Assembly: GCF_024972755.1 (NCBI RefSeq)
Contig: NZ_CP087724.1
Span: 124,001 to 188,000, forward strand
DNA from: Halanaeroarchaeum sp. HSR-CO
GTDB lineage: Archaea; Halobacteriota; Halobacteria; Halobacteriales; Halobacteriaceae
Length of the DNA: 64,000 bases
Direction of reading: 5' to 3'
Shown here: positions 32,598-34,896 of the stretch, one piece after another
Numbering within the stretch: position 1 is the stretch's first letter
Layout: each line of letters begins with the position of its first letter
Notes under the pieces: model-generated
Database searches by the model: none
Told to the model about the DNA's origin: nothing
The model's input: the letters and a program-made list of their open reading frames with translations, nothing else
Translations under genes and position numbers: made by a program

Positions 32598-33950
32598 ATG
32601 GGTATATCTCTGCTTCAGACGGTCGGGGCTGTCGCAATCGACCAGGACATCGTCCTCGTCGGCGGTGGCCTGGCGGTCCTCGTGTTGATGGTCCTCTCCG
32701 CGTTCTTCTCTTCGTCGGAGATCGCGATGTTCTCGCTCGCCCAACACCGGGTGGAGGCCCTCCGAGAGGAGGGGCTTCCGGGCAGTGAGACGGTGGCACA
32801 TCTGAAAAGCGACCCACACCGGCTACTCGTGACGATTCTCGTGGGGAACAACCTCGTCAACATCGCGATGTCCTCGATCGCGACGGGGCTGTTGGGGTTC
32901 TATCTGTCCCAGGGTGAGGCGGTCATCGCCGCGACTTTCGGGATCACGACGCTCGTGTTGCTGTTCGGCGAGAGCGCGCCGAAATCCTACGCTGTCGAGA
33001 ACTCCGAATCGTGGGCGCTCCGCATCGCCCCCGCACTCGCTCTCTCGGAGAAACTCCTCTACCCACTGGTGATCACCTTCGATTACCTCACTCGCGTCGT
33101 CAACCAGGTGACGGGCGGTCGGGCCGCCATCGAGAGCTCCTACGTTACCCGCTCTGAGATCCAGGACATGATCGAGACGGGCGAACGCGAGGGCGTCATC
33201 GAGGAGGACGAACGGGAGATGCTCCAGCGTATCTTCCGGTTCAACAACACCATCGCCAAGGAGGTCATGACCCCACGCCTGGACATGACCGCCGTCTCGA
33301 ACGAGGCCGAAATCGAGGAGGCGATCCAGACGTGTACGCAGTCCGGCCACGAGCGGGTCCCCGTCTACGAGAACGACCTGGACAACGTCATCGGCATCGT
33401 CCAGTTGCGCGACCTGGTTCGCGAGTATCTCTACGGCGAGTCGGACGGCGTGGACCTCGACGACCTGCTCGAACCCACCCTCCACGTCCCGGAGAGCAAG
33501 AACGTCGACGATCTGCTCCAGGAGATGCAAGAGGAACGCGTCCAGATGGTGATCGTCATCGACGAGTTCGGGACCACGGAGGGATTGATCACGACCGAGG
33601 ACCTCATCGAGGAGATCGTCGGCGAGATCCTGGAGGGCGAAGAGGAACGGCCCATCGACGTCGTCGAGGAGGGGACGGTCCTCGTTCGTGGCGAGGTCAA
33701 CATCGACGAGGTCAACGAGGCCCTCGACATCGAACTCCCGGAGGGCGAGGAGTTCGAGACCATCGCCGGCTTCATCTTCAACCGGGCGGGTCGCCTCGTC
33801 GAGGAGGGCGAATCCTTCACCTTCGAGAACGTCGAGTTGCGCGTCGAGCAGGTGGAGAACACCCGCATCATGAAGGCACGTGTCATCCGCCATCCGCCGG
33901 AGGAGGTCCCCGAAGCAGCGGGCAACCCCGACGTCGAGGACCTGGAGTGA
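32598..33950 (+). CDS. CNNM/CorC (HlyC/CorC) family membrane protein with CBS pair
   Basis: 450 residues: an N-terminal DUF21/CNNM domain of four helices (VGGGLAVLVLMVLSAFFSSS..., LGFYLSQGEAVIAATFGITT), a CBS pair (~200-330; VMTPRLDMTAVSNEAEIEEA and VIVIDEFGTTEGLITTEDL), and the C-terminal CorC_HlyC domain (ELPEGEEFETIAGFIFNRAG). The family is linked to Mg2+ efflux and homeostasis, not haemolysis. Start preceded by AT-rich TTAATTCGCC at 32565-32574. Monocistronic. Confidence 0.88.
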   Translation: MGISLLQTVGAVAIDQDIVLVGGGLAVLVLMVLSAFFSSSEIAMFSLAQHRVEALREEGLPGSETVAHLKSDPHRLLVTILVGNNLVNIAMSSIATGLLGFYLSQGEAVIAATFGITTLVLLFGESAPKSYAVENSESWALRIAPALALSEKLLYPLVITFDYLTRVVNQVTGGRAAIESSYVTRSEIQDMIETGEREGVIEEDEREMLQRIFRFNNTIAKEVMTPRLDMTAVSNEAEIEEAIQTCTQSGHERVPVYENDLDNVIGIVQLRDLVREYLYGESDGVDLDDLLEPTLHVPESKNVDDLLQEMQEERVQMVIVIDEFGTTEGLITTEDLIEEIVGEILEGEEERPIDVVEEGTVLVRGEVNIDEVNEALDIELPEGEEFETIAGFIFNRAGRLVEEGESFTFENVELRVEQVENTRIMKARVIRHPPEEVPEAAGNPDVEDLE

Positions 33951-34029: not shown

Positions 34030-34475
34030 AACGATGCGTTCTCTACGGGCACGAACGAGATGAACCAACGGCGGCAGTACCTGCGTCCGGCCGCCAGACG
34101 TGGGTGGGCACACTCCCAGCAACGAACGGACTATCGCACAACGGGTTGACCCGTGGGGAGAGAGCGTCCCGCTTGACAAGGCGGAACGCGATGACTCGCC
34201 ACGGGATGGGAGCGGTTGTGACACTGCCACGACTCCGACCGAGACGACTCCGTCGTCTTGTGGTCACGAGAGACGCTCTGCGTCTCTCGAACGACACCGT
34301 GAGAAGAGCGTACCAGCGCAGATGACGCTCACGGCCTACGAAGAGTCGAAACCCTCTGCCAGCGTTCACGAGACGATGTCTCGTGAGCCAACCAGAACCC
34401 TTGGTTCTGGTGACGACGACTGACTGGTATTCCCCATGCGTGGGAAGCCTCGCCGTTTACGGCGAGGAGGATGTC
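34030..34475 (+). mobile_element. Decayed IS200/IS605 (TnpB-type) 3' end with right-end hairpin
   Basis: No intact gene here. The frame at 34100-34423 (WGESVPLDKAERDDSPRDGS, TATTPTETTPSSCGHERRS) resembles low-complexity C-terminal tails of haloarchaeal IS1341-type TnpB proteins; upstream the frame has stops and no RuvC or zinc-finger motifs remain. The final ~30 bp, GGAAGCCTCGCCGTTTACGG plus CGAGGAGGATGTCAC, match my recollection of the subterminal hairpin and end of such elements. In Halobacterium this segment is transcribed as a sense-overlapping (omega-like) RNA. Family assignment rests on pattern memory. Confidence 0.45.
34242..34467. repeat. Chain of five perfect short-loop hairpins
   Basis: Five exact inverted repeats in 226 bp: AGACGAC-TCC-GTCGTCT (34242-34258), CGAGAGACGC-TCT-GCGTCTCTCG arms (34267-34289), TCACGAGAC-GAT-GTCTCGTGA arms (34366-34386), ACCAGAACC-CTT-GGTTCTGGT arms (34391-34411) and CCTCGCCG-TTTA-CGGCGAGG (34448-34467). 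Stems are 7-10 bp, loops 3-4 nt. This is typical of a structured RNA or ssDNA-folding transposon end. Confidence 0.7.
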
Positions 34476-34896
34476 ACTCCGGAACGAGGCCGAGTTGCAC
34501 GAGGATGCCGAATTGGTCGAAGTACCACCACGCCTCCGTCAGTTTCTCCTCGCCCATCCGGTGGATGGTCGCCCCCCTGTACTGGATCGTCTTGTTCGTC
34601 GCCGGCGTTCCGAGACCGGGCAATGGCCCCTCGTGGGTGGCGCGGGCCGTCCACTGCATGACGAACTTCTCGTCGCCGATGATGACGTCTTCGTGTGTGA
34701 CCTCGAAATTGGGAAATGCCTCGTGGTGGGCTCGCCGCCACTGTTTGAACGCTTCCCGTCCCTCGTAGTCACGTCCTTCCGGGATCAGGTGCATCACCAC
34801 GTCCTCGGCGTATATCTCGTCGATGTAGTCGAACTCGTTCTGGTTGAAGATCCGGTCCGTGGCGTCGATGATTCCCTCCCGTGTATCGATGTCCAT
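34474..34896 (-). CDS. SnoaL-like (ester cyclase/NTF2-fold) protein
   Basis: 140 residues from the ATG at 34896. NTF2/SnoaL fold: a helical start (IIDATDRIFNQNEFDYIDEI), YAEDVVMHLIPEGRDYEGRE, WTARATHEGPLPGLGTPATN, and a last strand KLTEAWWYFDQFGILVQLG. The family includes polyketide cyclases and many orphan enzymes; substrate unknown. Its TGA stop (34474-34476) lies inside the apparent transposon terminus, so the original C-terminus may have been replaced, though the length is close to the family norm. Confidence 0.75.
   Translation of the reverse strand: MDIDTREGIIDATDRIFNQNEFDYIDEIYAEDVVMHLIPEGRDYEGREAFKQWRRAHHEAFPNFEVTHEDVIIGDEKFVMQWTARATHEGPLPGLGTPATNKTIQYRGATIHRMGEEKLTEAWWYFDQFGILVQLGLVPE

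Follow-up and report, generated by a model that had tools for sequence, protein, structure and literature searches.

TnpB makes its omegaRNA by processing its own mRNA, as the title of one report states (PMC10278001). In haloarchaeal IS1341/IS605-type TnpB elements with their omegaRNAs (sotRNAs), the C-terminal tnpB frame is accompanied by a hairpin at the right end and by pseudoknot pairing of the hairpin-2 loop with the terminal motif; such a pseudoknot, together with a right-end hairpin, was reported for the omegaRNAs of Halobacterium salinarum (PMC12558985). The PATEs of Haloquadratum, in the passages that describe them, are transposase-free, IS605-derived elements with near-terminal palindromes, one of which, HqIRS71, keeps a C-terminal part of TnpB (PMC3119063).

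Here, we describe a related locus in Halanaeroarchaeum sp. HSR-CO, within a stretch of 64,000 nucleotides that we call the window (Table 1). Unlike the TnpB elements above, the locus lacks tnpB and a left end and carries two repeat insertions inside the RNA. We consider it very probable that it is a 5′-truncated relic of a haloarchaeal IS1341/IS605-type element that has kept its full omegaRNA scaffold, has received two REP-like repeat insertions, has no cognate TnpB and is most likely inert. Neither the window nor any of 14 related loci matched an Rfam family at gathering thresholds, and a tRNA and tmRNA search of the window found none.

Table 1. Features of the remnant and its surroundings, in window coordinates
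Feature	Position	Strand	Details
CNNM/CBS/CorC_HlyC-domain gene	32598-33950	+	domain search; nearest same-strand gene
Whole remnant: 3′ end of tnpB and right end of IS1341/IS605-type element	34129-34477	+	alignments to intact relatives
C-terminal tnpB codons	34129-34423	+	open to the family's TGA stop (34421-34423), 54 nt before the element end
omegaRNA hairpin 1	34150-34205	+	helices 1 and 2; inner helix 34164-34172 with 34181-34189; both-side changes at two helix-2 pairs
omegaRNA hairpin 2	34212-34227	+	helix 3; both-side changes at 3 of 4 pairs
Pseudoknot	34218-34223 with 34472-34477		hairpin-2 loop GTGACA with terminal TGTCAC; paired in 19 of 19
Insertion 1	34235-34294	+	60 nt, module-1 type; lies between hairpins 2 and 3 and contains array hairpins a and b; absent from most relatives
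Array hairpin a (1)	34242-34258		7 bp, perfect
Array hairpin b (2)	34267-34289		10 bp, perfect
omegaRNA hairpin 3	34297-34334	+	34297-34303 with 34328-34334; inner 34308-34310 with 34317-34319; helices 5 and 6, with three pairs in each changed on both sides
omegaRNA hairpin 4	34358-34428	+	helix 7; 34358-34362 with 34424-34428; loop enlarged by insertion 2
Insertion 2	34365-34415	+	51 nt, module-2 type, hairpin-4 apical loop; holds array hairpins c and d; CG-to-CG core 34363-34415
Array hairpin c (3)	34366-34386		9 bp, perfect
Array hairpin d (4)	34391-34411		9 bp, perfect
Array hairpin e, native right-end hairpin	34448-34467	+	helix 9; 9 bp with 2-nt loop, or 8 bp with TTTA tetraloop; both-side changes at two pairs
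Terminal motif AGGATGTCAC	34468-34477	+	transposon-encoded; TGTCAC forms the 3′ strand of the pseudoknot
Would-be guide	34478-34497	+	20 nt, position beside right end; into 3′ end of SnoaL-like gene (opposite strand)
SnoaL-like gene (PF07366)	34474-34896	-	stop codon inside the element's terminal GTCAC

The transposon remnant and its flanking genes

Relatives with an intact tnpB, or with tnpA and tnpB, share 34129-34477, which bears out the proposal of the first-pass annotation that the right end of a haloarchaeal IS1341-type element lies here. The homologous DNA of these relatives forms the end of an annotated transposase gene, in some cases with tnpA adjoining, and BLAST matched 61 plasmid records and, at E <= 0.001, 49 of 59 genomes (the window's own genome is included in the 59). 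The same terminus occurs in related haloarchaeal IS elements, so the assignment cannot be dismissed for want of such relatives. In close relatives, similarity sets in abruptly at 34129. Because it stops at 34477-34480 in most relatives, AGGATGTCAC is, on the evidence of these alignments, the true right end. Longer similarity on the right side was found in L016 (to 34486) and in L010 (to 34504), the latter a related intact element in a genome of the same genus (G001).

The loss of tnpB, also proposed earlier, is supported. C-terminal TnpB coding sequence lies directly 5′ of the right end, similarity to tnpB is found only from 34129 on, and the gene is missing upstream of about codon 359 (L039 numbering), so that there is no intact tnpB in cis. 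The two ORFs of the remnant had no match in Pfam, which is what the absence of the nuclease and zinc-finger parts would predict. The DNA upstream of 34129 has no similarity to the left parts or tnpB of the relatives; no left end was recognized there against the relatives compared. These comparisons likewise gave no support to the idea that the segment 33951-34128 is a left end.

The remnant is IS605-derived and too short for a transposase. With its authentic right end, it could therefore be regarded as a mobile PATE-like element, that is, a palindrome-associated, core-deleted IS605 element still movable by TnpA in trans: a portion of the TnpB C terminus is likewise preserved in the HqIRS71 PATE (PMC3119063), and the host genome has four TnpA loci. 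The remnant is present in a single copy in this genome, however, and has no recognized left end, and we regard such residual mobility as very unlikely. According to the favored reading, a truncated relic, the intact ancestor would have encoded TnpB, the 3′ end overlapping the tnpB stop would have been the omegaRNA, and the DNA just past the right end would have been the guide. Truncation would then have removed tnpB upstream of that codon, together with any left end, and left the omegaRNA scaffold whole.

The element meets a SnoaL-like gene whose stop codon (34474-34476) is supplied by the terminal GTCAC. Homologues of the SnoaL-like protein mostly align through residues 136-140 of 140, which places the element at the end of the gene, with no conserved domain truncated. 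Because the nearest same-strand gene, encoding a CNNM-domain protein, ends 178 bp upstream, any transcript of the relic would probably arise by read-through from it. The convergent position of these two genes, together with the SnoaL stop codon in the end of the element, would also fit a 3′-untranslated or antisense role, in which the segment serves as a terminator or stabilizer between the genes and its RNA pairs with the end of the SnoaL mRNA. Homology explains the hairpins as a transposon end, however, and nothing independent points to such a function; we judge this role unlikely.

The hairpin array and the omegaRNA scaffold

The first-pass annotation had singled out five perfect hairpins in 226 bp (34242-34467). 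All five were confirmed. When the 226 bp were shuffled 1000 times with dinucleotides preserved, 909 shuffles contained no such hairpin, 88 contained one, 3 contained two and none contained more. The folding z-score was -6.6 for the array and -7.4 for 34129-34477. The limits of the array enclose only part of the feature, since similarity starts at 34129 and the conserved 5′ half of the scaffold (34150-34227) lies outside them, with the scaffold starting about 90 bp upstream of the array. The suggestion that the array may be a guide RNA is partly supported: a complete omegaRNA scaffold is present, but the evidence does not support the array as such being the guide RNA. Four of its five hairpins are, by sequence comparison, two insertions of a dispersed double-hairpin repeat, and only the last hairpin is native.

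The fold was assessed in an alignment of 19 sequences, running from the conserved CCCGTGGGG to the element end. The scored structure, derived by reading the same alignment, comprised hairpins 1-4 and the hairpin at the right end, two helices of smaller size and the pseudoknot; paired cells made up 94.1% of the total, a figure inflated by drawing the structure from those very sequences. Both-side changes are stronger evidence than percent paired, and 59 cells were changed on both sides, compared to a mean of 17.9 in shuffles (0 of 500 shuffles as high) and at most 11 in slid-partner controls; these counts are of sequences, not of events. The pseudoknot is paired in all 19 sequences, with a U-A replacing a G-C in L034. 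The window sequence forms 54 of the 55 scored pairs. Some hairpin-1 pairs are doubtful, with the outer columns 7-54 (alignment A5) and the inner columns 25-34 each broken in 9 of 19 sequences. Covariation across the 19 relatives supports the assignment of a complete omegaRNA scaffold with its pseudoknot.

A double-hairpin repeat in the omegaRNAs of relatives

Each window insertion consists of two perfect hairpins whose loops are 3 nt long, and similar blocks stand alone in many haloarchaeal genomes. An alignment of 17 module-2 copies contained 18 both-side-changed cells, compared to 4.2 in shuffles, and a covariance model built from it (R1) matched 51 of 59 haloarchaeal genomes (E <= 0.001), including 16 matches at ten places in the host genome. 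Across the phylum, R1 matched 20 of 148 genomes at E <= 1e-6, all 20 in the window's order; it had no match in 4 other members of the order and apparently none in the 124 genomes outside the order, among the matches listed. Most copies carry CGTC at one end, read inward, and CGTT at the other (alignment A3). Several arrangements of the repeat were seen. In L116 and L117 (host contig 1, about 2141962 and 2143269), a second hairpin pair appears to be nested between the module-2 hairpins, giving four hairpins consecutively. Tandem double hairpins with a spacing of about 55-57 bp and overlapping end bases occur in L168 (G043 contig 35, 57603-57719) and L194 (G036 contig 23, 40148-40269). A near-identical pair of IS605 elements in opposite orientation has a double hairpin just upstream of each tnpA (host contig 1, 1416165-1416228 and 1525957-1526020).

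The recurrence of the insertions was assessed in a set of omegaRNAs from 70 named loci, 30 further loci and four others. These yielded 82 distinct omegaRNAs, of which 79 were kept after dropping L256 and L262 (N and duplicated sequence) and L283 (overlong); the count excludes omegaRNAs whose start or end motif falls outside the search patterns. Insertions were present in 20 of the 79, the window included, at four sites: site A, between hairpins 2 and 3 (n=5, each of 60 nt); site B, within the loop of hairpin 4 (n=13, of 51 or 54 nt); site C, within one arm of hairpin 2 (n=2, of 57 nt); and site D, which lies past the stop in the right-end hairpin (n=2, of 47 nt). Sites A and B are filled together only in the window, and B and D in L243. 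The 47-nt blocks in the right-end hairpin loops of L243 and L299 are a third kind of double hairpin, and L110 has a repeat copy in its right-end hairpin, past the stop. Comparison of filled and empty forms shows a block that follows a CG and ends in CG at three sites (B, C and D) and also in L110, whose empty form is inferred, making CG a likely target; the pattern at site A is ambiguous.

The insertions at sites A, B and C lie inside tnpB. There are 20 of them, spread over 19 sequences, and the length of every one is a multiple of 3; both site D insertions, past the stop, are 47 nt. The usual stop is reached in 18 of the 19 sequences, 52-54 nt before the right end or, in L243, 101 nt (the site D insertion adds 47); the exception, L246, has a premature stop inside the insertion. 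Repeat copies are also in frame in two other tnpB genes, L115/L209 in the host genome and L186. In L186 the double hairpin (1586-1646) sits in the middle of a 434-codon TnpB frame, shortly before LGIDLGVN, which we take to be a motif of the TnpB nuclease domain. The net lengths of dispersed copies leave remainders of 0, 1 and 2 on division by 3 in 46, 36 and 32 cases (n=114); with a length divisible by 3 in 40% of these copies too, only about five distinct site/family events carry the frame argument, and the insertion-bearing elements are kin, so that their 19 sequences are not independent.

A quick tree was built from upstream stretches of 75 tnpB genes. On it, site B requires 9 changes and site A 4, in a topology with many weak forks and several very long branches; taken alone, the starred branches force only one change between the two groups. 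L321 groups with uninserted relatives in another clade, which is well supported. This pattern implies either recurrent insertion or exchange of right ends, which may have taken place by recombination. One haloarchaeal tnpB (L241) came from a metagenome-assembled genome labelled Halobacteroidaceae (Bacillota), probably a binning error.

In the window, two REP-like double-hairpin copies would have been inserted, before or after truncation, in the gap between hairpins 2 and 3 and in the hairpin-4 loop. Because both lengths are divisible by 3, the omegaRNA core and the reading frame would have remained unbroken. The recurrence of the same insertions in many relatives suggests that these sites are exposed, tolerant positions and that loss of the tnpB frame was selected against. 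Alternatively, the double hairpins could be functional parts of the omegaRNA, such as protein-binding or stability domains, rather than parasites, as their few fixed sites in many elements and their perfect stems might indicate. Yet 59 of the 79 distinct omegaRNAs do without them. Moreover, of 119 dispersed places, 20 had a detected tnpA or tnpB within 700 bp and 99 had none so close, a tally for which 120 of 94 + 99 rows were kept by hand and one duplicate was removed, leaving out other-strand matches, loci repeating a place and weaker matches (weakest kept about 47 bits). On plasmids, no annotated feature underlies the match in 26 of 27 records and the 27th record is unannotated, the PLSDB gene tables being incomplete. 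Such a function is quite unlikely in our estimation.

Treating the double hairpins as inserted repeats, we speculate, as a possible but doubtful extension, that haloarchaeal REP-like mobile repeats find in TnpB guide RNAs loops where they can land safely, next to CG and keeping the frame, that the extended omegaRNAs still guide TnpB, and that the repeats are perhaps mobilized by IS605 elements. At a small number of fixed sites, double hairpins of 47-60 nt have been added naturally to TnpB guide RNAs with the core fold kept and, in all but one of 19 sequences, the overlapping protein frame as well; the insertions would mark exposed, insertion-tolerant positions of archaeal omegaRNAs and offer natural designs to engineers. 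These data also suggest that REP-dimer-like repeats occur in haloarchaea and are linked to IS605 elements.

Guide activity in the host and comparison with known systems

From its position beside the right end, and by analogy with published TnpB/omegaRNA systems, the 20-nt stretch at 34478-34497 is the putative guide, and the earlier view that the guide reads into the SnoaL-like gene agrees with that position. If the relic is transcribed, most likely by read-through, the product would be an orphan omegaRNA with a guide matching its own flank. Exact matches to 17 nt of the guide were found in 11 viral contigs, about the number that, by our estimate, chance would give for so large a collection; they do not support a viral origin of the guide beyond that level.

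The first-pass annotation had proposed that the RNA would be orphaned or could serve a TnpB in trans. With tnpB gone, the first part stands. The host genome contains seven TnpB-like places (PF07282), but no cognate TnpB was found among them: the best candidate, L047, shows about 48% identity and is broken across two frames, and its terminal motif differs from that of the window. A query with the C-terminal part gave one match in the host, at an E-value expected of such a distant relative. Because no cognate TnpB was found, action in trans is unlikely in this host, though a host TnpB of another subfamily may use the RNA of the relic.

A working orphan guide would require that the relic is transcribed, that its RNA is loaded in trans into a TnpB from the host's other elements or from an incoming element, and that it steers this TnpB to the guide sequence. 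The scaffold, complete with its pseudoknot, and the related intact element in the same genus would permit this. In addition to the missing cognate TnpB and the chance-level viral matches, the guide's own locus argues against it. TnpB should not cut a target that is flanked by the right end of the element, and at the relic the right end does flank the target, so that the locus itself should escape cutting. We give a working guide little credence, and conclude that the relic is most likely inert now. The locus itself illustrates clearly how a guide-RNA scaffold can outlive its nuclease.

Among the open-licence PMC papers searched, we recognized none, judging by titles and abstracts, that describes these haloarchaeal double hairpins or REP-like repeats enlarging TnpB guide RNAs. 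The relic itself is an ordinary outcome for the IS1341/IS605 class, near PATEs such as HqIRS71 as described in PMC3119063, from which it differs in having no recognized left end and a single copy. The passages concerned of that 2011 paper do not treat the termini as guide RNAs. The same paper describes SMR-A small mobile repeats, which, like the repeats reported here, are short and preferentially invade IS605-type elements or PATE palindromes, but are about 110 bp long with prominent terminal inverted repeats, in contrast to our hairpin pairs of 47-60 nt (PMC3119063).

The CGTC-tagged REPs are also similar, as far as their description in PMC3733652 extends: they have a CGTC end, paired hairpins, heterodimers and no dedicated transposase, and are mostly intergenic with some in-frame intragenic copies, such as some Rickettsia RPEs. 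Section 6 of that account gives the REP-dimer stem as starting with complementary A/T pairs and a CCA tail, and the text consulted names archaea only in its reference list (PMC3733652). Those REPs are bacterial, whereas the repeats described here are haloarchaeal, with mostly 3-nt loops and ends that read CGTC and CGTT inward.
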